Below, piece by piece: positions 23,911 to 40,000 of a stretch of 64,000 nucleotides of DNA (its first letter is position 1; each line of letters opens with the position of its first letter). The notes beneath the pieces were generated by a model. The model did not search any database and had not been told where the DNA came from. It saw only the letters and a program-made list of their open reading frames with translations. This stretch comes from Alkalispirillum mobile (lineage in GTDB: Bacteria; Pseudomonadota; Gammaproteobacteria; Nitrococcales; Halorhodospiraceae), in NCBI RefSeq assembly GCF_003664325.1, contig NZ_RCDA01000001.1, forward strand, positions 434,001-498,000, in the 5' to 3' direction. Position numbers and translations under genes: made by a program.

Positions 23911-24330
23911 TTACTGGTCCTTACTCGGCTTGCCGCGCAGCTGCTTCAGGCGTCCACGTTGTTTCTTACTGTCCATGCGCCGTTTCCGGGCGCCCCGCGT
24001 GGGCCGGGTGGCACGGCGCTTTTTCACCGGGCGTGCCGCTTCCTGGATCAGCTCGCGCAGGCGTTCCAGGGCGTCCTGGCGGTTCTGCTCGAGGGTGCGG
24101 TGCTGCTGCGCCTTGATGATGACCACCCCGTCCTTGCTGATGCGCTGGTCGGAGAGGCTCAAAAGCCGTTCTTTGTAGAACGGCGGCAGTGTCGAGCGGT
24201 TGATATCGAACCGCAGGTGCACCGCTGTGGCGACCTTGTTCACGTTCTGGCCACCGGCGCCCTGGGCCCGGACCTGGCTCAACTGGATTTCCCAGTCGGC
24301 CAGCACGACGGCGTTGGAGATCTTCAGCAT
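23911..24330 (-). CDS. arfB: Alternative ribosome-rescue factor / peptidyl-tRNA hydrolase ArfB (YaeJ)
   Basis: A 139-residue class-I release-factor homologue with the hydrolytic GGQ motif in RAQGAGGQNVNK. It lacks the codon-recognition domain of RF1/RF2, as ArfB does. The basic C-terminal tail (KKRRATRPTRGARKRRMDSKKQ, less the last two residues) is the part that inserts into the mRNA channel of non-stop ribosomes. It frees stalled ribosomes when tmRNA is insufficient. The start at 24330 gives a length within one residue of E. coli ArfB; an in-frame ATG at 24348 is six codons upstream. The reading frame stays open through the frameshifted methyltransferase upstream, but this is an artefact of high GC content. 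Confidence 0.92.
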   Translation of the reverse strand: MLKISNAVVLADWEIQLSQVRAQGAGGQNVNKVATAVHLRFDINRSTLPPFYKERLLSLSDQRISKDGVVIIKAQQHRTLEQNRQDALERLRELIQEAARPVKKRRATRPTRGARKRRMDSKKQRGRLKQLRGKPSKDQ

Positions 24331-24440
24331 CCCGCTATCATCGGTCATCTGACCGCAGCACCACAAACCCGCTCCCGGCCAGCGGGTCCGGCCACGCCTC
24401 CTGCTACCTGGACCGGACCGTGCCCGCCTTGACTGGCCGG

Positions 24441-25314
24441 TCAATCCCGTCGTGCGGTAACGCACCAGGAGCTGGAGGGCATCACCACCCTGCCCTGCTC
24501 CAAGTAGGGGTGCAGTGCCTCCTTCAAGGCAGCTTCGATCTGCGTGCGTTTCTGCTCTGCCTCCTTCCCCGCCTCGCGAAAGACCTCGCCGGCCGGTCCG
24601 ATGGCCAATTGGAAGTTGACGGCGTCCTCCAGCGAGTCGCCCACCGTGACCGGCCCGTCGATGCGATCGAACTGGATCTCCCGGAACCCGGCAATCTCCA
24701 GCTGTCGGCTGACCACGTCCGGGTTCGCCATGGAGAAGGGCCCGGGCCCGCACGTCCGGGCGTCCTCCCCCGGGGGGTGGCAGGAAGTCGAGGACCACCT
24801 CCTTGGCCATACCCAACCAGGGATTGTCTTTCGCCTCACGCCATACGATGAACATGAGCTCGCCACCCGGTCGCAGGGCGGTACGGACATTTCGCATGGC
24901 CGCAACGGGGTTTTCAAAGAACATCATCCCGAACCGGGAGAAGGCCATATGGAATGCGTTGTCGAAGGGGTAGCGCTCCACATCCCCGGCCACGAACTCC
25001 ACGTTCTCCAGGTCCTGGTTCCGCGCCTCCTCGCGGGCGCGATCGAGAAACGCATCCACGCAGTCCACGCCCAGAACGTAGCCGGTCGGGCCGGTCTTGT
25101 GGGCCAGGGCGATGGCCGTATCCCCCCAGCCGCAGCCGACATCGACCACCCGTGTCCCGGGTTCCAACCGCAGCGCATCCAGCGGTACCCGGCTGTGATA
25201 ACTCAGCCCGTCCATGAGGATATGGCGAAAGCGGTTAAACTTCGCTGCCAACGTGTCATTCCAGAATTCCACGTACTCGGTGGGGGCCGCAACCCCCTCG
25301 CTGATCTGACTCAT
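24441..25314 (-). pseudogene. Class I SAM-dependent methyltransferase, interrupted by one-base frameshift
   Basis: Starting at the ATG at 25314 behind GGGAGG, the frame gives a well-formed methyltransferase N-terminus with the SAM motif VVDVGCGWGDTA (about residues 54-65). It runs to FLPPPG. There the original frame turns into unrelated sequence, while the next frame continues with the expected family C-terminus 'GEDARTCGPGPFSMANPDVV' and ends at 24441 with 'VMPSSSWCVTARRD'. The switch point is a C5/G6 run at 24767-24777 on the plus strand: one base too many. Either a sequencing or assembly error, a strain mutation or slippage could explain it. Without it the protein would be about 290 residues. 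Substrate unknown; the family resembles small-molecule methyltransferases with a C-terminal 'GPAGEVFREAG' block. Confidence 0.85.
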
Positions 25315-25354
25315 GGCAGGTGCCCTCCCAATGATGGCGCACACAGGCGCGGGG

Positions 25355-25378
25355 CAGCGGCGACGGCCGTCGCCGCTG
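25355..25378. repeat. 24-base perfect palindrome upstream of the methyltransferase gene
   Basis: The half site CAGCGGCGACGG is followed at once by its exact complement CCGTCGCCGCTG. The palindrome lies 40 bases before the methyltransferase ATG. Its RNA would form a very stable hairpin but no T run follows. It could be an operator for a dimeric regulator or a leader hairpin; no regulator is recognised. Confidence 0.6.
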
Positions 25379-25523
25379 GGGGGCTGCGGCAATGCGCTTG
25401 CCACGATCACAGCGACACGGGAGCGGATCCGCGTGAGCGTCGGCACGCCTGCCGCGGCAGTTTCCCGCTCAAAGTATAGGTAGGGGGATTGGGTGAATCT
25501 GCGGTGGGGGCACTGCGGTTTTG

Positions 25524-27657: not shown

Positions 27658-29298
27658 ATGACTGATTCTGTGAATGAGTTCGTTCATCAGCACAGCGTCA
27701 CCGAACTGCCGGCCTTTCCGGCCGTGGTGCTCTCGCTTCTGGAGGTGATGTCAGGGGGGGATGCCGGACCCCGGGACGTCGAGGCCATTATCAGGCGGGA
27801 CAGTACATTGACGACGCGGCTGCTCGGGGCTGCCAATGCCGCTGCCTTGACGCGCGGGACGCCTGCCGGGAACCTGCGCGAGGCCATCTCGCGCCTGGGG
27901 TTAACCCGTGTCCACACGCTGGCGGTCACGGCTGCCGTGCGCGGTTACTTCCGCGCCCTGGACCAGGGCCAACCCACGTGGCAGACGAACCTCTGGAACC
28001 ATGGCCTGCTCTGTGCAGTGCTGTCACGGGAACTGGCCCGTGTCCGCGGCGCCTGTCCTGAGGCTGCTTATCTGGCCGGTCTGCTGCACGACCTGGGCAA
28101 GCCGGTACTCGCCCTGGCCTATCCGGATGCCTACGACCGGCTTCTGCAAAAGGCGGAGTGCTCGGACGTCAGCCTGCACGGGTTGGAACACCGTCAGTGG
28201 GGCCTGGACCACAGCGGCGTGGGTGCGGAGCTGCTGGCCTACTGGGGCTTCCCGGCGCTGATCACCGATGCGGTGCGGTACCACCACCAGCCCGTAGCCG
28301 ACCTGGCACACGCCCACCCACTGGTCCGATGCGTGGCCCTGGCCAACCTCCTCAGCCGCTATCCGGAAGTGGACGTAACCGGCCGCCAGGCCGCCGCCCG
28401 CCTGCTAGACCTCGGCCGCGCCGATGCACAGGCCTTGCTGGACGTGGCATACCGGGAACTGGCGGAAACCCGGGCCGCGTTCGGTGAAGATGCCGACGCC
28501 GACCCGGCTGAGGCCAACGAGCAGACCCTACGGGCGCTGGGAAAGCAGGCACGGACCGCGGCCCTGGCCGGGGGGCTGGGCGCGACCCTGGCCGAGGGTG
28601 AAACCATCGACAACATCATCATGTGTGTCGCCCTATTGTTCGGCGTTCGGCACCTGCTGGTGCTGCAGGTCGATGACGACCAAGAGCAACTGCGGGGCAC
28701 GGCCACCCCCACCGCCCACCCCGGTATCGCCGACCTCAGTCTGCCACTGGATGCTGAAGCCAGCCCGATAGCGAGCTGTCTGTTGCACAACCGGATAGAC
28801 ACGCTGGAAGCCACCAGGCAAGGCGGCACCCTGCCGGTGGCCGACTGCCAGGTGCTGGACCGGCTGGATGGCGAGACCGCTCTGGCGTTGCCGCTCTTCA
28901 GTAGCGGAAGACCGGTGGGCTTGCTGGTCCTGGGCCTGCGCCGGGAGCAAACGGCGGCGCTGCAGCAGGAAACCGGGCTGCTCCGCGCCTTTGCCGACCA
29001 GGCCGGTGCCCTGCTGGCGCGCCAGCAGCAGGAGGCGCGCGCCCTGCGCGCCAGCCGCGAGTCCGCGCGCGCCGAACAGCAAGAGCGCCAATTACGTTTG
29101 GTCACTGAGGCCGCCAACCCGATCACCGTCATGCAGAACTACCTGGGGGTGCTGCAGCAGCAACTGGAGCAGGATCACCCCGGTCAGGGCGGGTTGTCCG
29201 CCCTCAGGGACGAAGTCGAGCGTATCAAGGAGCTGATATCAAGCCTGGAGGCAGAGTCCACGGGGGAAGCGCCATGCGACCGCGCATCGGGGCTCTGA
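27658..29298 (+). CDS. HDOD-domain signalling protein with GAF-like module
   Basis: A 546-residue protein. Residues 10-205 are an HDOD domain ('ELPAFPAVVLSLLEVM', 'LLHDLGKPVLA', 'HHQWG' as EHRQWGLDHS), a relative of HD phosphohydrolases that usually lacks catalysis and links c-di-GMP or other signals to targets. HD residues are partly kept (HDLGK near 138). A middle part (about 310-450) looks like a GAF-type domain ('TALALPLFSSGRPVGLLVLGL'). A C-terminal coiled coil follows, and the extreme C-terminus resembles a histidine-kinase dimerisation segment without a catalytic domain ('TEAANPITVMQNYLGVLQ'). The next gene begins 41 bases later and encodes a c-di-GMP protein, so the two probably form one operon. 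Confidence 0.85.
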   Translation: MTDSVNEFVHQHSVTELPAFPAVVLSLLEVMSGGDAGPRDVEAIIRRDSTLTTRLLGAANAAALTRGTPAGNLREAISRLGLTRVHTLAVTAAVRGYFRALDQGQPTWQTNLWNHGLLCAVLSRELARVRGACPEAAYLAGLLHDLGKPVLALAYPDAYDRLLQKAECSDVSLHGLEHRQWGLDHSGVGAELLAYWGFPALITDAVRYHHQPVADLAHAHPLVRCVALANLLSRYPEVDVTGRQAAARLLDLGRADAQALLDVAYRELAETRAAFGEDADADPAEANEQTLRALGKQARTAALAGGLGATLAEGETIDNIIMCVALLFGVRHLLVLQVDDDQEQLRGTATPTAHPGIADLSLPLDAEASPIASCLLHNRIDTLEATRQGGTLPVADCQVLDRLDGETALALPLFSSGRPVGLLVLGLRREQTAALQQETGLLRAFADQAGALLARQQQEARALRASRESARAEQQERQLRLVTEAANPITVMQNYLGVLQQQLEQDHPGQGGLSALRDEVERIKELISSLEAESTGEAPCDRASGL

Positions 29299-29339
29299 TG
29301 GATTCGCAAGCCGCACGCCTACAACAATGATAAAACGCC

Positions 29340-31520
29340 ATGAAAGCCATACCGCCGACGCCCAACGAGGACGACCCCTTACAGCCACCGGCCTACGAGC
29401 GGAGCGAACGTATCCTGGCAGTAGACCGCCATCCGCGCCTGCTGGAAAGCCTGGACTTGCTCGCGAGCGCCCGGGGTATCCCGCTCGACACGGCCGAGAC
29501 ACCGGACGAGGCCCGGGCGCTGCTGGCGGATACCGACTACGGCCTGGCGCTGGTGGAGATGCAGGGCGGGGACGAGACCAGCCTGGGTTTGATGGAGTGG
29601 CTGCGCGAACATCACGGCGCCGTGGACGTCATCGCGCTCACCGCCGACCCCACCTGCAAGGCGCCGATAGAGGCGCTGCGTCGCGGCGCCAGTGAATTCA
29701 TTCGCAAGCCCTATGCCCCGGAGGCCCTGCTCGCCACCCTGGAGAACACCCTGGAACGGCGGCGCCTGCATCGGCAGAACGAACAGATCCGTCACCGGCT
29801 GAAGCGCTCGGAACGGCTTTACCGCTTCATTGTTGAGAACTCCCCCGATTTTATCTACGTGCTCGATGCCCAGGGGCGCTTCACGTTCGCAAGCCGGAGC
29901 ACCGAAAAGCTTCTGGGCATCGGGCCCGAGGCCCTAGTTGGCGAGCATTTCCAGAGGGTGGTGCTCGCCGAAGATCGCGAGGTGGCGGAATTCCGTTTCA
30001 ACGAACGCCGCACTGGCCATCGCGCCACCCACAACCTGGAACTGCGCCTTTGCGCGCAGCCGGGCGGAGCCCGCAACCCGGTGCGCACCGTGGACCTCAC
30101 GGCCATGGGCATCTACGCCGACACCGACAGCGACCAACCCGGTCAGTACCTGGGTACCTACGGGATCGCCCGCGACGTCACCGAACGCAAGCAGGCGGAG
30201 TCCATCGTCCACTATCAGGCCCACCACGACCTGCTTACCGGCCTGCCCAACCGCGCACTGCTGAAGGACCGTCTGGGCCAGGCCCTGGCGCAGGCGCGTC
30301 GCGACAACAGCGAGGTGGCGGTGCTGTTCCTGGACCTGGACCGCTTCAAGGTGGTCAACGACAGCCTCGGCCACTCGGTGGGCGATGAATTGCTGCAACG
30401 GGTTGCGCACCGGCTGCGCGGCTGCCTGCGCGAAGGTGACACCCTGGCGCGCCTGGGCGGCGACGAATTCACGCTGTTGCTGCCAGCCATTCCCGACCGG
30501 CGGGCCGCCGAGCGGGTGGCAGAGAAATGCATCGGCGCCCTGGAGGCCCCCTTCCTTGTCCACGACCACCGGCTATTTCTGGGTGTGAGCATCGGCATCG
30601 CGGTCTACCCGGAGCACGGCGAAACCCAGGAGGTGCTGATCAAGCACGCGGACGTGGCGATGTACCACGTCAAGGACGAGCACAAGGGCCATTACAGCTT
30701 CTTCGATGCGGCCATGAGCAACCGCATCGATCGCCACCTGAACATCGAGACCGGCCTGCGCCAGGCACTGGACAACCAGGAATTCCGGGTGGTGTATCAG
30801 CCCCAGGTGGACGTGGAGACCGGGGCGATCACCGCCATGGAGGCCCTGATCCGCTGGCAACACCCGGAGGCCGGCGAGATCAGCCCCGGCGAATTCATCC
30901 CGGTGGCCGAGCAGACGGGCCTGATCATCCCCATCGGGGACTGGCTGCTCCACACCGCCTGCGAAGAGATGCTGCGCTGGCCCGGCGCCGAGCACCTGCG
31001 TTTGGCGGTCAACCTGTCGCCGTTGCAACTCAACCAGCGTGATTTCGTGCAGCGAGTAGGCGAAATCTGCGGGAACACGGGGTTTCCGCTCTCGCGACTG
31101 GATCTCGAGATCACCGAAAACCTGCTGATGCGCGACGTGGATTCGGTAGTGGAGAAACTGCGCACCCTCAGCCGGCTGGGCGTCACCGTGGCCATCGACG
31201 ATTTCGGCACCGGTTACTCATCGCTCAGTTACCTGCAGCGCCTGCCGATTCATACCCTCAAGATCGACCAGTCCTTTATTCAGGCCATCCGAGAGGGCCA
31301 GGACGAGGGCACATTGGTGGAAACCATCATCGCCATGGCCCAGGGGCTGGACCTGCGGGTGGTGGCGGAAGGGGTCGAAACCGAACGTCAGCTCAACTAT
31401 TTGCGGCGCCTGAAATGCGGCTATATGCAGGGCTACTATTTCAGCCGTCCCATAAACGGCCGTGACGCCGTAAACCTCCTAGGCAGCTGGCCGCGGGAGC
31501 GCGAGGCAACGGGTTACTGA
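29340..31520 (+). CDS. Receiver-PAS-GGDEF-EAL protein (c-di-GMP metabolism)
   Basis: A 726-residue cytoplasmic protein with a response-regulator-like domain (24-145), a PAS domain (about 160-285), GGDEF (motif at 373-377) and EAL (motif E501-A502-L503). The GGDEF active site and the RxxD product-inhibition site (REGD, 364-367) are intact, and the EAL part carries 'EALIRW' and 'DDFGTGYSS', so both synthesis and breakdown of c-di-GMP are possible. The receiver is unusual: the phosphoacceptor position in 'GLALVEM' is E73, not Asp, while the Lys of 'FIRKPYAPEAL' is kept. It may therefore act as a permanently phosphorylated mimic or as a protein-binding module. It follows the HDOD gene closely. 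Confidence 0.92.
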   Translation: MKAIPPTPNEDDPLQPPAYERSERILAVDRHPRLLESLDLLASARGIPLDTAETPDEARALLADTDYGLALVEMQGGDETSLGLMEWLREHHGAVDVIALTADPTCKAPIEALRRGASEFIRKPYAPEALLATLENTLERRRLHRQNEQIRHRLKRSERLYRFIVENSPDFIYVLDAQGRFTFASRSTEKLLGIGPEALVGEHFQRVVLAEDREVAEFRFNERRTGHRATHNLELRLCAQPGGARNPVRTVDLTAMGIYADTDSDQPGQYLGTYGIARDVTERKQAESIVHYQAHHDLLTGLPNRALLKDRLGQALAQARRDNSEVAVLFLDLDRFKVVNDSLGHSVGDELLQRVAHRLRGCLREGDTLARLGGDEFTLLLPAIPDRRAAERVAEKCIGALEAPFLVHDHRLFLGVSIGIAVYPEHGETQEVLIKHADVAMYHVKDEHKGHYSFFDAAMSNRIDRHLNIETGLRQALDNQEFRVVYQPQVDVETGAITAMEALIRWQHPEAGEISPGEFIPVAEQTGLIIPIGDWLLHTACEEMLRWPGAEHLRLAVNLSPLQLNQRDFVQRVGEICGNTGFPLSRLDLEITENLLMRDVDSVVEKLRTLSRLGVTVAIDDFGTGYSSLSYLQRLPIHTLKIDQSFIQAIREGQDEGTLVETIIAMAQGLDLRVVAEGVETERQLNYLRRLKCGYMQGYYFSRPINGRDAVNLLGSWPREREATGY

Positions 31521-31761
31521 CCGGCAGACACGCAGGGTCCCCGCGCGCCCGAACGACAGCCCGATGGAGGCCCGTTAAGCATTCTCTCCCCGCCCATCGA
31601 CTGGATACGCCCCGCCCCGGGGAAACCGATCGCTGCTGCGGATCAACGCATTTGATGGCCGACAGCCAGGGACCGGGTAGCGGGTGCTTTATCAGCCCTG
31701 TGCCGGCGGGCTACCCTGCCCGTTATCGAGATCACAAAAACCAGCAGGGGGAGGCGCAGCC

Positions 31762-32943
31762 ATGACGGACAGCAACCGCCATTTCAGCACCCGGGCCATC
31801 TGGGCCGGCGAACCGAAAGACCTGCACCGCAAGGATGTGGCCACACCGGTCCACCACAGTGTCACCTTCTCCTACGAGGATGTGGACGAGTGGTTCGACG
31901 TCGCCCTGGATCAACGGCCCGGCTACATCTACTCGCGCAACAAGAACCCGACCGTGCGTCCGCTGGAACTGACCATGCGCGCACTGGAGGGCGCGGGTGA
32001 GGCCGTCAGTTTCTCAACCGGCATGGCCGCCATCAGCAACACGCTCTTTACCCTCCTGGCCCCGGGCGACCGGGTGGTGGGTATCAAGGACACCTACGGC
32101 GGCACCAACAAGATCTTTACCGAGTTCCTGCCCCGGGCCGGGGTGGACGTGGCCCTGTGCGATACGCTGGATTTCGACGCAATCGAGGCCGAGATCCGCA
32201 AGGGCTGCAAGCTGCTCTACCTGGAGACCCCCACGAACCCCACCTTGAAGGTGGTGGACATCGCACGGTTGTCCCGGGTGGCCCACGAACACCACGCGCT
32301 GGTAGTAGTGGACAACACCTTTGCCACGCCGGTGAATCAGCGGCCGCTGGACCTGGGGGCTGACCTGGTCCTCTACAGCGCGACCAAGTACCTGAACGGC
32401 CACTCTGACGCCATGGGGGGCATCCTCTGTGGCCCGAAGGATATCGTCGACCGGGTCTTCCACTACCGGGAGATCAACGGCGCCACCCTCCACGCCAACA
32501 GCGCCTACATGATCCTGCGCGGGTTGAAGACCCTGGAATTGCGCATCCAGCGCCACAACGAGAACGCCCAGCGTGTGGCCGAATACCTGCATGAACACGA
32601 CAAGGTGGAGGCCGTTTTCTACCCGGGGCTCCCGGACCACCACAACCACACCATCGCCAAGGCGCAGATGGACGGCTACGGCGGCATGCTCAGCTTCTCA
32701 CTGAAAGGCGACTTCGAGCAGGTCAAGCGGCTGCTGCCGCGGATGCGTCTGGCCCACAAGGCCGCCAGCCTGGGCTCGGTCTCCACCCTCGTGGGCCCAC
32801 CTCGGGTCACCAGCCACGTGGAACTGACTGCCGAGGAGCGCCGGGCGGCGGGCATCCCGGAGAGTCTGATCCGCTATTCGGCCGGCATCGAAAACGCAAA
32901 GGACCTGATCGCCGACCTGGAGCAGGCGCTGGCGGGCATCTGA
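31762..32943 (+). CDS. Cystathionine gamma-synthase / Cys-Met metabolism PLP enzyme
   Basis: A 393-residue PLP-dependent enzyme of the Cys/Met-metabolism family (trans-sulfuration). The cofactor lysine lies in SATKYLNGHSD near 206-216; the PLP-phosphate segment 'SFSTGMAAISN' (about 84-94) and 'LETPTNPTLKVVDI' match the family. Members include cystathionine gamma-synthase, cystathionine gamma-lyase, O-acetylhomoserine sulfhydrylase and methionine gamma-lyase, and the sequence alone does not decide. The N-terminal 'HFSTRAIWAGEPKD' differs from classical MetB and points to a distinct subgroup. The start is fixed by a strong GGGGGAGG site. A long GC hairpin follows between it and the convergent YbhB gene. 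Confidence 0.9.
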   Translation: MTDSNRHFSTRAIWAGEPKDLHRKDVATPVHHSVTFSYEDVDEWFDVALDQRPGYIYSRNKNPTVRPLELTMRALEGAGEAVSFSTGMAAISNTLFTLLAPGDRVVGIKDTYGGTNKIFTEFLPRAGVDVALCDTLDFDAIEAEIRKGCKLLYLETPTNPTLKVVDIARLSRVAHEHHALVVVDNTFATPVNQRPLDLGADLVLYSATKYLNGHSDAMGGILCGPKDIVDRVFHYREINGATLHANSAYMILRGLKTLELRIQRHNENAQRVAEYLHEHDKVEAVFYPGLPDHHNHTIAKAQMDGYGGMLSFSLKGDFEQVKRLLPRMRLAHKAASLGSVSTLVGPPRVTSHVELTAEERRAAGIPESLIRYSAGIENAKDLIADLEQALAGI

Positions 32944-33018: not shown

Positions 33019-33498
33019 TCAGTCGCGCTGGTAGGTACCGACCAGCCGGTTCATCCCGATGATGTTCGGCTCCAGCCGCTCCAGCATCTGCCAGAGGCTC
33101 AGGCCGGAGGGCAACTGCTCATCGGTATCCAGGGCCAGCACCCAAAAATAGTAGCGGTGCACGCCGTGGCCGTCCGGCGGCATGGGGCCACCATAACCGA
33201 CGTTGCCAAAATCGTTCTTGCCTGGCGTGTACGCCTGGGTGCCCTCCTCCAACTGGTTGACGTCTCCCGGGATGTTGTACAGCACCCAGTGCACGAAGCC
33301 GTAGGTGCCACCCGGGCTGACCAGCGGCGCATCCGGGTCGTGGCAGATCACCGCAAAGGCCTTGGTGCCCTCGGGCGCCTGGCTCCAATCCAGCGCCGGC
33401 GAGACGTCCTCGCCCTCACCGGTATAGCGGGCAGGAATCGCGCCGCCGTCGGTAAACGCAGTGGTGGTCAGGTTCAGATCGGATAGTGCAAAACCCAT
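33019..33498 (-). CDS. YbhB/YbcL family Raf-kinase-inhibitor-like protein (PEBP)
   Basis: A 159-residue phosphatidylethanolamine-binding-protein fold. The conserved ligand pocket block is present (CHDPDAPLVSPGGTYGFVHWVLYN, shown here as CHDPDAPLV and FVHWVLYNIP), together with the 'YGGPMPPDGHGVHRYYFWVLALD' region in shortened form: GGPMPPDG...HRYYF. In eukaryotes the family regulates kinases; bacterial members have no firm function, though they bind anionic ligands. No signal peptide is present. The ribosome site AAGGAGG precedes the ATG. It is divergent from the kaiB run. Confidence 0.93.
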   Translation of the reverse strand: MGFALSDLNLTTTAFTDGGAIPARYTGEGEDVSPALDWSQAPEGTKAFAVICHDPDAPLVSPGGTYGFVHWVLYNIPGDVNQLEEGTQAYTPGKNDFGNVGYGGPMPPDGHGVHRYYFWVLALDTDEQLPSGLSLWQMLERLEPNIIGMNRLVGTYQRD

Positions 33499-33585
33499 AT
33501 CAGCCTCCTTCGGTTTCGTTATCGCATCGTGGCTATCCGCAACACCCGCCTAGCCTACCGCGACCCTTCGCCGCTTTGCATCCGC

Positions 33586-33614
33586 TTGGGCCCGTGATCC
33601 GGACACCGTATACT
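33586..33614 (+). promoter_or_regulatory. Probable kaiB promoter
   Basis: TATACT at 33609-33614 (five of six consensus bases) lies 17 bases after TTGGGC at 33586-33591. Transcription would start near 33621, about 50 bases before the kaiB ATG. The -35 is weak, which may allow activator control. Confidence 0.4.
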
Positions 33615-33669
33615 AGTAGACAAATTGTGGAATGCCGTGCGCATTCCCACTCGAAACGGGGGCACCGCC

Positions 33670-33966
33670 ATGACCGAACGTTATCTCCTCCGGCTGTTCA
33701 TCTCCGATCACACCGACCGGTCCCGGTGCGCCCTCGAAAACCTGGAGCAGATCTGCGCCGAGGAGCTCGGTGGCCGTTACGAACTCGAGATCGTGGATAT
33801 CCTGCTCGACCCCCAGGCGGCAGCCCGCGAGCAGGTGTTCGCCACGCCCACGCTGATACGCGAGTTACCCCACCCGGTCAGGCGTATCGTCGGCGACCTG
33901 GCCGATCACGAGCAGGTCCTGGAGGACTTGGAGCTGCTGCCCATCCTCGCCAAAGGGCGGGACTGA
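33670..33966 (+). CDS. kaiB: KaiB family circadian-clock-like protein
   Basis: A 98-residue thioredoxin-like KaiB. The family signature is intact: an N-terminal strand 'LLRLFISD', then 'YELEIVDILLDPQ', the cis-Pro motif 'FATPTLIRELP' and the 'PVRRIVGDL' segment. In cyanobacteria KaiB changes fold and binds phosphorylated KaiC; in other proteobacteria KaiB/KaiC pairs act in stress or metabolism rather than in a true clock. No kaiA or kaiC is found in this window. Sixty-one bases later starts a PAS-GGDEF gene and after that a second one, so KaiB is probably linked to c-di-GMP signalling here (inference). The start ATG is preceded by GGGGG. Confidence 0.93.
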   Translation: MTERYLLRLFISDHTDRSRCALENLEQICAEELGGRYELEIVDILLDPQAAAREQVFATPTLIRELPHPVRRIVGDLADHEQVLEDLELLPILAKGRD

Positions 33967-34027
33967 GCCGCAATAGGCATCAGGTCCGGCGCGTATTTGC
34001 TACGCTTCGGAAAGCTTTTTGCGCACG

Positions 34028-34996
34028 ATGTCCGAAATCCTGACACCCGCCATCAAGAAAACCATGCAAAACGTATCGCAAAAGAACAACACCCCGAGCC
34101 CCCACCGCCCGCACCCGGTGTGCAACCGCCGGCTGGCCGCCTTTCGGCATTCCGGAAATGGGGACGGCCCCGAGGAGGACCAGCTGTTCGAGATCATCGT
34201 TCGCCACTCCAGCGATGCCATCGTGGTGACCGATGACCAGGGCCTGGTCCGTTATGCGAACCCCGCGGCGGCAAAGCTCTTCGGGCGCCGCGTGGAAAAA
34301 CTCCTGGGCCGCCCACTCGGGCTGCCCACCGGGGGCGAACGCAACGAAGTGGACATCATCCGCCCCGAAGGTGACCTGGTGGTGGCCGAGATGCTGACCT
34401 CCCGCATCCCGTGGGGCAAAAAGCAGGCACGCCTGGCCATGCTGAGGGACATCACCGAGTGGCGCGAGACCCTCTCCCGACTGGATCACCTGGCGCACTT
34501 CGACCCGCTGACGGAACTCCCCAACCGGTCCGAACTGCAGCGCCAGCTGCGCAAGGCGCTCTCCCGGGCAAGTCGGCGGAACGCGAAGGTAGCGGTGCTG
34601 TTCCTCGACCTGGACGGCTTCAAGGTCGTCAACGACACCCTGGGCCATACCACCGGTGACCTGTTGCTTCGCGAGGTGGCCGTCCGCCTGAATGCCTCGG
34701 TCCGGGCCGGGGACCTGCTGGCCCGTATCGGCGGGGATGAGTTCGTGCTGGTGCTGGAGAATATCACCTGCGCCGACGCCGCCGCCCATGTGGCGGAAAA
34801 GCTGATCAAGGCGCTGGAGGCGCCCTTCCAGCTCGACGACACAACCCTGCACCTGAGCGCCAGCGTCGGCATCGCCCTATGCCCCCAAGACGGTGTGCAC
34901 GCCGGCCGCCTGGTTCAGACCGCGGACCACGCCATGTACCGGGCCAAGGCCGCAGGCCGGGGGACGTACGCCTTCAGCTGGGACCCCCACGACTGA
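34028..34996 (+). CDS. PAS-GGDEF diguanylate cyclase
   Basis: A 322-residue protein with a PAS domain (about 50-150, 'DAIVVTDDQGLVRYANPAAAKLFG') and a C-terminal GGDEF domain. The active-site motif GGDEF lies at 235-239 and is preceded by the RxxD inhibition site (RAGD, 226-229), so it should synthesise c-di-GMP from two GTP and be feedback-inhibited. The PAS domain could sense a small molecule or redox state. The first 45 residues look disordered and have no membrane segment. The ATG at 34028 is chosen; a TTG three codons upstream is possible. It follows kaiB and precedes a larger GGDEF gene. Confidence 0.9.
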   Translation: MSEILTPAIKKTMQNVSQKNNTPSPHRPHPVCNRRLAAFRHSGNGDGPEEDQLFEIIVRHSSDAIVVTDDQGLVRYANPAAAKLFGRRVEKLLGRPLGLPTGGERNEVDIIRPEGDLVVAEMLTSRIPWGKKQARLAMLRDITEWRETLSRLDHLAHFDPLTELPNRSELQRQLRKALSRASRRNAKVAVLFLDLDGFKVVNDTLGHTTGDLLLREVAVRLNASVRAGDLLARIGGDEFVLVLENITCADAAAHVAEKLIKALEAPFQLDDTTLHLSASVGIALCPQDGVHAGRLVQTADHAMYRAKAAGRGTYAFSWDPHD

Positions 34997-35090
34997 TTTT
35001 AAGCTTGCGCGTGGGGTTTTCCCGCCTAGAATGGCAGGCACGTGCGCTGTTGCTTCCCTCCCGGGGAGAAGCCGGAGGCCATAGATCGCC

Positions 35091-37019
35091 GTGCTGCCAA
35101 ACTGGCTCTTTATTGTCCTGATCCCTGCCACGCTGATGGCAGCCGTTCTGGCCCTGATCCTGCAACTGCGACAACGGCACCGGTTAGCCGACGAGGTACA
35201 AAGCCGCACCCGGCAGCTTTACGACGAGCGCGAACTTTTCCGCACCCTCTCCCATAACACCGCCGCCGGTATCTTCATCGCCCGGCTGCACGAGCTGGTG
35301 GCCGTCAACCCGGCGCTCTGTGAGATCCTCGGGCGCAACGAGGATACCCTCATCGGCATGGACTGGCGGGCGCTGGTCCACCCGCAAGACCGAGCGACCG
35401 TGGAGGCCCGCGCGGCGGCTCGCCTGCGCGGGGACCGGGTGCCGGCGCGGTATGCCATCCGGATCATCCGCCAGGACGGCAGCCCCCGTTGGGTGGAATT
35501 GAGCGCGGGGCGGGTGCAGCACCATGGGCACCCGGCGATTATCGGCACCCTCTTCGATATCAACCGGCGCTACGAACTCGAGCAGGCACTCCGCCACAGC
35601 GAGGCGAAATACCGCCAGCTGGTGGAGAACGTCAACGACATCATCTACACCGTCTCACCCGAAGGCGTCCTCACCTACGTCTCGCCCAACTGGCCGGAAC
35701 TCCTCGGGCACGAGGCGGAAACCGTCACCGGACGCAATATCGCCGAATTCGTCCACCCGGACGACCTGCCGGCCTGCATGGAATTCCTGGAACGCCTTTA
35801 TCTCACGGGCAAGAAGCAGAGCGGGATTGAATACCGGGTCAAACACGCCAATGGGACGTGGCGCTGGCACACCTCCAACGCCTCCCCGCTGTATGGCGAC
35901 AACGGCGGGGTGGAGGCCTACGTGGGCATTGCCCGCGATGTCACGGATCGCAAGTCCATGGAGGGCGAGCTGCTCTATCAATTGCGCTTCACCGAATTGG
36001 TCGCCGACCTGTCCACTCGCTTCGTGCGCAGCTACGCCGAGGATATTGACTCGGTGATCAACGACATGCTGGCCCGGGCCGGGCGGTTTTTCGGGGTGGA
36101 CCGCACCTACTTCTACATGTTCTCGGATGATGGGACCACCCTGTGCAACACCCACGAATGGTGCGCCCCCGGGGTCGACTCGATGATTCAGAAGAGCCAG
36201 GCGGTGTCGCTCGACGGCTACCCCTGGTGGCGACAGCGCATGGAGGCCCTGCGCAATCGCCACGATGTGGTCTTCATCGAGGATGTGGACGCGCTACCGC
36301 CGGAAGCCGCCGCCGAGCAGGCCCTGTTACGTGACCAACGGGTGCGCACACTGTACTGCGTCCCGGTGGCCACCCCGGACCGGGTCATCGGCTTCCTCGG
36401 GTTTGACTCACTGGCGCCGCGGGACTGGCGCCGGGACCAGGGGGACCTGCTCGTGGTATTGGGCAACCTGCTCGCCGCAGCCCTGGCACGAAAGGCGTTG
36501 GAGGAGGAGTTGCGCGGCCTCTCCGTCACCGATCCGTTGACCGGGCTGTTCAACCGCCGCTTCCTGCGGGCAAGGCTCGTGGCGCTGATCGAGGAGTACG
36601 AGCGGACCGGTCGCAACTTCTGCCTGAGCCTGCTGGACCTGGACCACTTCAAGCAGTTGAACGACGAGCACGGCCATCTGGCCGGCGATCGCGCCCTTCA
36701 GGATTTTGCCGGCATCCTGCGGGAGAACCACCGGGTATTCGACATTGTGGCCCGGTATGGCGGCGAGGAGTTCGTGGTGGTGCTGGTGGAGACGGAGATG
36801 GAGCAGGCCCGGGCCATCACCAGCCGGGTGCTCGAGGCCACCCGCGAGTTCAGCTTCAGCCATGACGGTACCGTGATGCCACTGACGGCCAGCGCCGGCC
36901 TGGCGGACATCTCCGAGCTGCCGCAGGATCAACGCAACGTGGAGAACCTGCTGCAACTGGCCGACCGGCGTCTGTACCAGGCCAAGCAGAAGGGGCGAGA
37001 CCGCCTGGTGGCCCACTGA
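35091..37019 (+). CDS. Membrane-anchored PAS-PAS-GAF-GGDEF diguanylate cyclase
   Basis: A 642-residue protein beginning with one membrane helix (about 5-25) at a GTG start. PAS domains follow at about 50-165 and 175-295, then a GAF-like domain (about 310-475) and GGDEF. The active site is GGEEF at 557-561, with the RxxD site RVFD at 548-551 in the right spacing, so c-di-GMP synthesis and product inhibition are expected. Several PAS and GAF domains suggest that more than one signal is read. It is the third gene of the kaiB run, 94 bases after the preceding diguanylate cyclase. A GC hairpin lies between its stop and the convergent hrpA. Confidence 0.9.
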   Translation: MLPNWLFIVLIPATLMAAVLALILQLRQRHRLADEVQSRTRQLYDERELFRTLSHNTAAGIFIARLHELVAVNPALCEILGRNEDTLIGMDWRALVHPQDRATVEARAAARLRGDRVPARYAIRIIRQDGSPRWVELSAGRVQHHGHPAIIGTLFDINRRYELEQALRHSEAKYRQLVENVNDIIYTVSPEGVLTYVSPNWPELLGHEAETVTGRNIAEFVHPDDLPACMEFLERLYLTGKKQSGIEYRVKHANGTWRWHTSNASPLYGDNGGVEAYVGIARDVTDRKSMEGELLYQLRFTELVADLSTRFVRSYAEDIDSVINDMLARAGRFFGVDRTYFYMFSDDGTTLCNTHEWCAPGVDSMIQKSQAVSLDGYPWWRQRMEALRNRHDVVFIEDVDALPPEAAAEQALLRDQRVRTLYCVPVATPDRVIGFLGFDSLAPRDWRRDQGDLLVVLGNLLAAALARKALEEELRGLSVTDPLTGLFNRRFLRARLVALIEEYERTGRNFCLSLLDLDHFKQLNDEHGHLAGDRALQDFAGILRENHRVFDIVARYGGEEFVVVLVETEMEQARAITSRVLEATREFSFSHDGTVMPLTASAGLADISELPQDQRNVENLLQLADRRLYQAKQKGRDRLVAH

Positions 37020-37023
37020 CCGG

Positions 37024-37054
37024 GCGCCGGGGCCACGCCAGCCTCACCCGGCGC
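37024..37054. terminator. GC hairpin between convergent genes
   Basis: GCGCCGGG (37024-37031) pairs with CCCGGCGC (37047-37054) around a 15-base loop. There is no T run. It sits exactly between the stops of the diguanylate cyclase and hrpA. Confidence 0.4.
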
Positions 37055-37058
37055 GGCC

Positions 37059-40000
37059 TCAGGCCACCTCCTTCCAGGCCGCCTTGAGCCGCTTCTCCGA
37101 AACCTTCTCCTTCGCCCCCACGTCCTGCGCGAACAGCGACACCCGGTACTCCTCCAGCAGCCAGCGGAAGCGCTCCAGGGCGGGATCCGGCTTGCCCTGC
37201 GCCTCGCGACGCTCGCGGCGCTCCCGCCACTTCTCCCACCATGGCCGCACACTGCGCAAGGGCGTCCGGTCCTTACCCGGGTCCTGACGCAGTTTTTCAA
37301 CCCGCCGCTCCAGGGCGCGCAGGTAGCGGGGCAACTCCGCCAGATACTCCGGTGGTGTCTCCCGCAGGAAACCGGGATATACCAGGCTGTCCAGGTGCTC
37401 CTGCAGGTCCTTCAGGCTGTCCATCAGGGCCAACGCGTTGAATTGCTTGAGCGCCTTGCGGACCGCCTGGTAGCGGCCCAGCACCTCGTCCAGCCCGTCC
37501 ACCAGCCGCTGGGCGTTCTCCACCAGTTGCGGCCGGCCCCGCTCCAGGCGCTCCCGGAATGCCGCCTCGGTACGCGGCAGTGCTTCCCCGAGGAAGGTCC
37601 GGTCGATGGCTGCGTGAACCAGCTCCCGCTTGAGGTCCTCGTCCGACCCCAAGCCGCGGTAGGCGAGCCGCAGCCTGTCCAGGCCCGGCAGCCCGCGGCG
37701 CAGGTACCGCACCTGCTGCGGCAGCGCCAGCATGAACAGACGGCGGATACCGGCTCGGTTCTGCCGCTCGGCCTCGTCCGGGCTATCCGACAAGGTCAGC
37801 CGCACGCTGTCCTCCTGCTCGATCAGGGCAGGATAACCGCGAATGGTGAGGCCATTACGTTCAATCTCAACAGTTTCGGGCAGGTCGCCGAAATCCCACG
37901 TCTTTATGCCGTCTCTCGACCACGCCTCCGTGCCACCGCCTGTCTCGGCGAAGCGCTGACTGGCCTCGTCGCCCAGCCCCGCCTGCAGCCTGGCCAGGTC
38001 GGACCCGGTGCGCAGGGTCTTGCCTTGTTCGTCCAGCACCCGGTAGTGCATCCGCAGGTGCACCGGCAGTTCCACCGCGTCCAGCGCACCGGGCGGGATG
38101 TCCACACCGGTGATGCGCTTCAGGTGGCGGGCCACGGCATCCGTCAAGGAGCCCTCACCGTGGGGGATCGCCTCGAGCACGGCCCGGGCGTAGTCCGGTG
38201 CGGGCACGAAGTTACGCCGGACCGCCTTGGGCAGCGCACGGATCAGCGCCACCACCTTCTCCTGCAGCAGCCCCGGGACCAGCCACTCAAAGGGCTCCGG
38301 GCGCAGCTGATTGAGCGCTGCCACGGGCACCCGGGCCACCACGCCGTCCAGTTCGCTGCCCGGCTCCAGGTGGTACTCCAGCGGCAACTCCAACCCGCCG
38401 GGCAAGCGCAGCCGGTCGGGATAGGCCTCACCGGACACCACGTCGGCATCGTCGCGCATCAGCGCCTCGCGACTCATGTGCAGCCGTTTCGGGTCCTCCC
38501 GGGCGATCTTCTTGAGCCAGCGTTCAAAGGCGGCGCCGCTGTAGATCCCTTCCGGTATCCGCTGCTCGTAGAAGCGAAAGCGCGCCTCCTCGTCCACCAG
38601 CACATCGCGGCGGCGCGCCTTGGCCTCCAGCCGCTCGATCTCCTCGATCAACCGGCGGTTATGCGCCCAGAACGGGGCGCGGGTGCGGTACTCCCCCTGG
38701 ACCAGTGCCTCCCGAATGAAGATCTCGCGTGCGGTCGGCGGATCGATGGGCCCGTAGTTCACCCGACGCTGGCTGGCCAGAACCAGACCGTAGAGGGTGA
38801 CCTTCTCGAAGGCACCCACCTGGGCCGGTTTCTTCTCCCAGTGGGGCTCGGAGTAGCTGCGGCTGATCAGGTGGCTGCCGATACGCTCGATCCAGTCCGG
38901 CTTGACCTCGGCCACCGTCCGGGCAAACAGGCGGCTGGTCTCCACGAACTCGGCGGCCACGATCCATTTCGGGTTGCGCTTGAACTGCCCCGACCCGGGG
39001 AAGATCATCAGCTTCACGCCGCGGGGGCCCAGGTACTCTTTGTTCTCCTGGTGGTGGGCCACGTTGCTGATCAGCCCGGTGAGCAGCGCCTCGTGGATCG
39101 CCTGGTACTGTGCATCCAGGTGCTCGCGCAGCGGGGCATCGTCCAGTGCCTGGAGGGGCCGGGGTTTGTCCGCGCCCGGCTTGCCCCTGGCCCCCTCCAG
39201 CCCGGCCACCAGTTCGCGGATCTGGCGGTGAATATCCAGCCACTCCCGCATCCGGTGGGGGCTCAGGAAGTTCTCACGGCACCACTGGCGCAGTTGCCGG
39301 TTGCTGAGTTTTCGTTTTTGCCGGTGGTAGGCCTGCCAGAGCAGCAGGAAGGAGAGAAAGTCACTCTTCTCGTGCCGCCATTGGCCGTGGGCGCTGTCCG
39401 CCGCCTGCTGGGCGTCCAGCGGCCGGTCCCGGGGGTCCTGCACCGAGAGCGCAGCGGCAATGACCAGCACCTCGTCCAGCACCCCCTGGTCGCGCGCCGC
39501 CAGCAGCATGCGGCCCACCGGTGGGTCAAGCGGCAGGCGGGCCAGCTGGCGGCCCAGCGGGGTGAGCTCCCGCCCGCTGTCCACCGCACCCAACTCGTGC
39601 AGCAGCTTGAAGCCGTCGTTGACAAACTTGTGCTCGGGCGGTTCCACGAAGGGGAAGCGCTGGATGTCGCCGAGCCCCAGGGCCTTCATCTGCAAGATGA
39701 CCGCGGCCAGGTTGGTGCGCAGGATCTCCGGGTCGGTGAATTCCGGCCGCCCCGCGAAATCCTCCTCACTGTACAAGCGGATGGCCACACCCGGCGCCTC
39801 CCGCCCGCAGCGGCCGGCCCGCTGATTGGCCGACGCCCGGCTGATGGGCTCCACCGGCAGGCGCGAGACTTTGGTCCGGTAGCTGTAGCGGTTGATCCGC
39901 GCGTAGCCGGAGTCCACCACGTAGCGTATCCCCGGTACGGTCACGGAGGTCTCCGCCACGTTGGTGGCCAGCACCACCCGGCGCCCGCCCCCCTTGGGGT

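Follow-up and report, generated by a model that had tools for sequence, protein, structure and literature searches.

Gene content of the locus

The analysed window (the whole stretch of 64,000 nucleotides, G000:C1:434001-498000) belongs to the 2.95 Mb genome of Alkalispirillum mobile, which was assembled in 13 contigs and is 99.7% complete. Within it, a kaiB gene is followed on the same strand by two genes for predicted diguanylate cyclases, dgc1 and dgc2, the products of which would synthesize c-di-GMP. The features of the locus, in window positions, were as follows:

33499-33669 (+): intergenic region upstream of kaiB, between a divergent PEBP-family gene and kaiB; presumed promoter region
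33670-33966 (+): kaiB, intact, 98 amino acids, PF07689 with E 1.6e-23; the only KaiB of the genome
34028-34996 (+): dgc1, PAS-GGDEF diguanylate cyclase; Pfam GGDEF with E 3.7e-51, plus PAS
34175-34480 (+): PAS domain of dgc1, of a type mainly from kai loci and common to sister genus g3 and genomes G030 and G410
35091-37019 (+): dgc2, PAS-PAS-GAF-GGDEF, GTG start; Pfam GGDEF with E 5.5e-42

The gaps were 61 bases between kaiB and dgc1 and 94 bases between dgc1 and dgc2. An earlier reading of the DNA letters, hereafter the sequence-only reading, had given the same gaps, and its coordinates and domain assignments for the three genes were correct. It had also described both cyclases as having complete active and inhibitory sites, in agreement with the translations: dgc1 carries RAGDLLARIGGDEF and dgc2 carries RVFDIVARYGGEEF, each with the GG(D/E)EF signature and the RxxD inhibitory site intact. 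Its suggestion that all three genes are read from one promoter gained no support, as a consensus scan of positions 33400-37100 gave no sigma-70-like site. Horizontal gain as an island of odd composition was rejected, since the GC and GC3 contents of kaiB, dgc1 and dgc2 were the same as those of the neighbouring genes.

A second c-di-GMP cluster was observed a few kb upstream of kaiB (27658-31520, +), consisting of an HDOD-GAF gene and an RR-PAS-GGDEF-EAL gene (29340-31520). Between this cluster and kaiB lies a gene for a Cys/Met-metabolism PLP-dependent enzyme (31684-32943, +). Genes for such an enzyme (36–38% identity) were also found downstream of kaiC in loci L052 (5903-7180) and L065 (4132-5412) of the Halorhodospira type, a label based on genus g2, which we take to be Halorhodospira. 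The recurrence of this gene near kai genes in several loci is possibly a coincidence. Synteny with the Halorhodospira-type kai loci was rejected: the flanks were unlike, and the distant Cys/Met enzyme was the only gene in common. Further upstream (about 23911-25446, −), the frame of a SAM-methyltransferase gene seemed by eye to shift after LPPPG and to continue into an ArfB-like release-factor gene, a possible frameshift.

KaiB and the missing KaiC

The sequence-only reading had called the gene product a bona fide KaiB, and this was borne out. The motifs ATPTL and PVRRIVGDL were both present, and the protein scored 82.6 bits against PF07689 (E 1.6e-23; curated cut-off 27). In the AlphaFold2 model (mean pLDDT 80), the best Foldseek matches were KaiB crystal structures (TM 0.80–0.85), and identity to the best-matching solved KaiB structures was 40–45%. 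The score for the circadian KaiB equivalog TIGR02654 was 74.1 bits, below the NCBI cut-off of 145.3. The protein fell in a KaiB1-like clade. In a KaiB tree based on about 100 columns, with many forks unresolved, it grouped with the KaiB of G030 (SH-aLRT 82) and next with Halorhodospira-type KaiB encoded beside high-scoring KaiC (91).

The A. mobile KaiB was changed at positions that are nearly invariant in its KaiC-linked clade, e.g. G16 to D, G89 to D and D91 to E. Both G89 and D91 (T. elongatus numbering) were replaced in A. mobile, in G030 and in both KaiBs of genus g3. Compared with these KaiC-less proteins, G89 was kept in 31 of the 34 KaiC-linked KaiBs of the same clade (Fisher 5e-4, kinship ignored). 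From these two replacements, it was proposed that the KaiC-free KaiB is locked in the fold-switched state. This proposal was not supported: AlphaFold2 with an 11-sequence alignment predicted the ground-state topology (pLDDT 80), and the same outcome for a KaiC-linked control (pLDDT 67) meant that the run did not discriminate. AlphaFold2 is a weak test for the metamorphic KaiB (PMC10808063).

The genome yielded a single KaiB match. Across the whole genome, the general KaiC/RecA-like profile PF06745 matched five places in four genes, which were RadA, DnaB, AtpA and RecA. The model TIGR02655 detected no KaiC in A. mobile and did so in nine of 11 other family members, and no remnant of kaiC was found around the kaiB locus. 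The sequence-only reading, which had reported no kaiC in the window, was thus right, and by both profiles the absence extends throughout the genome. Hence, the KaiC needed for a KaiBC timing system was not detected in A. mobile.

A kaiB gene without kaiC is unusual, since 115 of the 123 KaiB genes collected had a KaiC gene within 2.5 kb. It lay just upstream in all 31 KaiB loci of named genomes, and kaiC was also beside kaiB in 20/20 loci taken from the phylum-wide survey. The eight KaiB genes without KaiC within 2.5 kb were those of A. mobile, G030, G010 and G011, two in G381, one in G452 and the remnant in G260. One KaiB gene of G381 had KaiC further off in the same gene run and the other was on a short contig; in G452, KaiC was about 8 kb away. 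A ninth case, G410, was found separately from the 123 genes.

Recurring linkage of kaiB with a PAS-output gene

A comparison of gene order, a check proposed with the sequence-only reading, was positive: kaiB without an adjoining kaiC, beside a PAS-output gene, recurred in three other lineages, namely G030, sister genus g3 (G010 and G011) and G410. Genome G030 is from another family of the same order. Its KaiB was 62% identical to that of A. mobile, with a PAS-PAS-GGDEF gene 75 bases downstream, and it has KaiC genes elsewhere in the genome, one of them accompanied by a divergent KaiB of its own. In g3, a PAS-HATPase gene directly followed kaiB, with a 29-base gene overlap in G011. KaiC was not found in either g3 genome, an absence that is less certain for metagenome-assembled genomes that are 81% complete. 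No HisKA domain was detectable in the g3 PAS-HATPase proteins (L063 9730-10638 and L064 403-1386), and their N-box looked degenerate by eye; they may be pseudokinases. Genome G410 (same class, 100% complete) contained a kaiB gene (L159 8200-8520, +) that is frameshifted within a run of A, either through genuine decay or through an error of assembly, and then an intact PAS-GGDEF gene. Its sole match to the KaiC model (E 7e-5, 78 positions, in a 463-amino-acid frame) looks like a RadA-type ATPase.

A decayed kai locus was observed in G260 (L164 about 1980-2482, −), where a broken kaiB was joined to broken GGDEF pieces and kaiC was missing. Genome G137, of the same genus as G260, carried kaiB-kaiC-REC-PAS-GGDEF with one frame change, between PAS and GGDEF.

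For the one genome pair in g3, dN/dS was 0.16–0.34 for kaiB, 0.02–0.06 for the PAS domain and 0.27 for the HATPase part. By these values kaiB is therefore constrained without KaiC: the g3 kaiB is under purifying selection, and in the neighbouring gene the strongest constraint falls on PAS.

The closest matches of the Dgc1 PAS domain were PAS domains from genes next to kaiB. When it was searched against 54 genomes of the order, the top three foreign matches were the kaiB-adjacent PAS domains of G010, G011 and G030 (E 2e-25 to 4e-24, 48–53% identity); the next best PAS within the A. mobile genome reached 32% over 57 residues. The next level (40–44%) consisted of Halorhodospira-type proteins encoded away from kaiB, which were PAS-GGDEF-EAL proteins where examined. 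A PAS type exclusive to kai loci was ruled out by these proteins. Among 38 KaiB-bearing genomes of the class and phylum, 42 PAS matches passed the cut-off for a strong match (1e-8), and 35 of them lay by their coordinates at most 5.5 kb from a kaiB. For 15 of 19 genomes, the best PAS match sat in a kai locus.

In kai loci, this PAS type was fused to GGDEF, histidine-kinase domains or GGDEF-EAL, so that the output domain varies while the KaiB-PAS pair persists. Conservation of the PAS type across different outputs (GGDEF, HATPase, histidine kinase, GGDEF-EAL) fits an interface between KaiB and PAS. Many loci of the phylum survey were long runs of kaiB-kaiC, often with a second kaiB or kaiC, and then PAS-histidine-kinase and PAS-GGDEF genes. 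Long runs with two kaiB genes were observed in L236, L238, L239, L241, L242, L244 and L247 (phylum survey) and in L138 and L139; several also had two kaiC genes, and most continued with PAS-histidine-kinase and PAS-GGDEF genes of the same PAS type.

A gene of the dgc2 type was absent downstream of kaiB in G030, g3 and G410. We consequently did not retain dgc2, which is still a real gene, as part of a unit with kaiB and dgc1.

A proposed reduced kai operon and its alternatives

We hypothesize, with about even confidence, that kaiB and dgc1 represent a reduced kai operon without kaiC and that KaiB acts there on Dgc1, probably via the PAS domain. The starting point would be the kai output operon common in Pseudomonadota, with kaiB-kaiC and then PAS-histidine-kinase and PAS-GGDEF genes. 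After a loss of kaiC, KaiB and its PAS-containing diguanylate cyclase partner would have remained linked. KaiB would then be a small protein regulator of Dgc1 that works on the PAS domain or jointly with it, and the state or amount of KaiB may set c-di-GMP synthesis without KaiC. The comparisons establish that kaiB and dgc1 were inherited together; from the sequences we infer that KaiB may also bind and regulate Dgc1. The observations behind this hypothesis are the missing kaiC, the recurring kaiB-PAS linkage, the kai-type PAS domain and the purifying selection that both kaiB and PAS show in g3. The sequence-only reading had suggested that KaiB works on both c-di-GMP enzymes, for example by binding their PAS part. 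The recurring linkage (g3, G030 and G410) and the PAS type from kai loci favour such a partnership for Dgc1 only, and the idea was dropped for Dgc2, which has no conserved link with kaiB.

Several points count against the reduced operon. The linkage could be a legacy of an ancestral operon where the true partner of KaiB was KaiC. The kaiB of G410 is frameshifted and the kai locus of G260 is a decayed remnant; KaiB can thus decay after KaiC has been lost. The neighbours of kaiB in g3 and G030 differ from dgc1 in domain content, and Halorhodospira-type genomes also encode the PAS type at a distance from kai genes. A wider proposal is tentative: KaiB could regulate independently of KaiC, by binding a PAS domain dedicated to it and switching whichever output is fused to that domain (GGDEF or a histidine-kinase-like ATPase), a second and separable role. 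If true, this role may also operate beside KaiC in larger kai operons.

Among the alternatives, an ordinary KaiBC system in which KaiC is present but was missed (in an assembly gap, on an unassembled plasmid or as a very divergent form) is very improbable. Room for it is left by the 13 contigs and a completeness of 99.7% rather than 100%, but two profile searches returned RadA, DnaB, AtpA and RecA and nothing else, the model TIGR02655 readily detects KaiC in nine of 11 other family members, and kaiC usually adjoins kaiB, which is not so here. A chance neighbourhood where c-di-GMP genes are plentiful, with several GGDEF/EAL genes within 8 kb, may well be true of dgc2. For dgc1 it is largely refuted by the adjacency conserved in other families and by the pattern of PAS matches, and as an account of the locus we give chance very little credence.

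It is also unlikely that kaiB is a relic of a recent loss of kaiC, idle and surviving for now because transcription passes through it on the way to a useful diguanylate cyclase gene. The frameshift of the G410 kaiB in a run of A, the broken kaiB and GGDEF pieces that are all G260 keeps, and the altered near-invariant positions of the A. mobile KaiB (G16 to D, G89 to D, D91 to E) agree with such a fate. However, the full-length KaiBs of A. mobile and G030 share 62% identity and have intact core motifs, kaiB is under purifying selection in the KaiC-less g3, and KaiC-less units occur in several lineages. Alternatively, KaiB might serve another partner, e.g. in a stress response like the one suggested for the Legionella protein, and its position ahead of dgc1 would be only historical. 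PMC10808063 and PMC5520375 cite work in which free Legionella KaiB has a structure like that of thioredoxin and a role in stress, and the tie between KaiB and PAS is deduced from linkage. We nevertheless doubt this explanation, as kaiB keeps the same PAS type alongside while outputs and flanking genes change.

Comparison with known Kai systems

KaiB has been studied almost only as a KaiC binder. No paper that describes KaiB together with a diguanylate cyclase where KaiC is absent was found in the literature searched, outside of which many subscription papers lie. A KaiC-free kaiB beside a kai-type PAS cyclase offers a minimal natural system for examining a possible link from KaiB to c-di-GMP without the ATPase of the clock. 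If KaiB binds the PAS domain of Dgc1, this would show how the PAS kinases and PAS cyclases of bacterial kai operons receive their signal. The retention of kaiB beside such a cyclase, with no detectable KaiC, points to an ability of KaiB to serve a signalling enzyme when the core of the clock is missing. Fold-switched KaiB also binds domains other than those of KaiC, namely KaiA and the CikA pseudo-receiver (PMC6378743), and a partner other than KaiC is therefore not far-fetched.

Like the cyanobacterial KaiABC clock (Synechococcus, Thermosynechococcus), A. mobile has a KaiB homologue with a predicted ground-state fold. Unlike the clock, it is without KaiC, and its KaiB scores below the TIGR02654 cut-off and is changed at the fold-switch positions G89 and D91. 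For Synechococcus, an indirect influence of c-di-GMP on the circadian rhythm is assumed, and binding of KaiB to KaiC in vitro was unaffected by it (PMC13001216). The KaiB of Legionella pneumophila (Lpp1115, PDB 4KUN), implicated in stress response and not in rhythm (PMC10808063), is likewise a non-cyanobacterial KaiB with a proposed non-clock role; in contrast to A. mobile, the Legionella kai operon includes KaiC (PMC5520375, citing Loza-Correa 2014).

KaiB is encoded with a PAS signalling protein in Rhodopseudomonas palustris, as kaiC-kaiB-PAS histidine kinase (PMC4794148), and in Rhodobacter sphaeroides, as a kaiBC operon with a PAS protein (PMC6627678). Both differ from the A. mobile locus in having KaiC, and the output in R. 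palustris is a histidine kinase and not GGDEF. Also among the closest precedents are kaiBC clusters with GGDEF/EAL or histidine-kinase genes behind them (De Luca et al. 2011, PMC3164672). Arrangements of this kind were also seen in many of the KaiC-bearing loci surveyed here, so the link to c-di-GMP as such, which in the sequence-only reading would be a new use of the clock protein, has precedents. The A. mobile locus resembles the De Luca clusters in that KaiB is encoded beside a PAS-containing c-di-GMP enzyme or kinase, with a PAS type common to many surveyed kai loci. Those clusters contain KaiC, whereas the A. mobile locus and genome contain none, and the new part is only this KaiC-free form of a known operon type.
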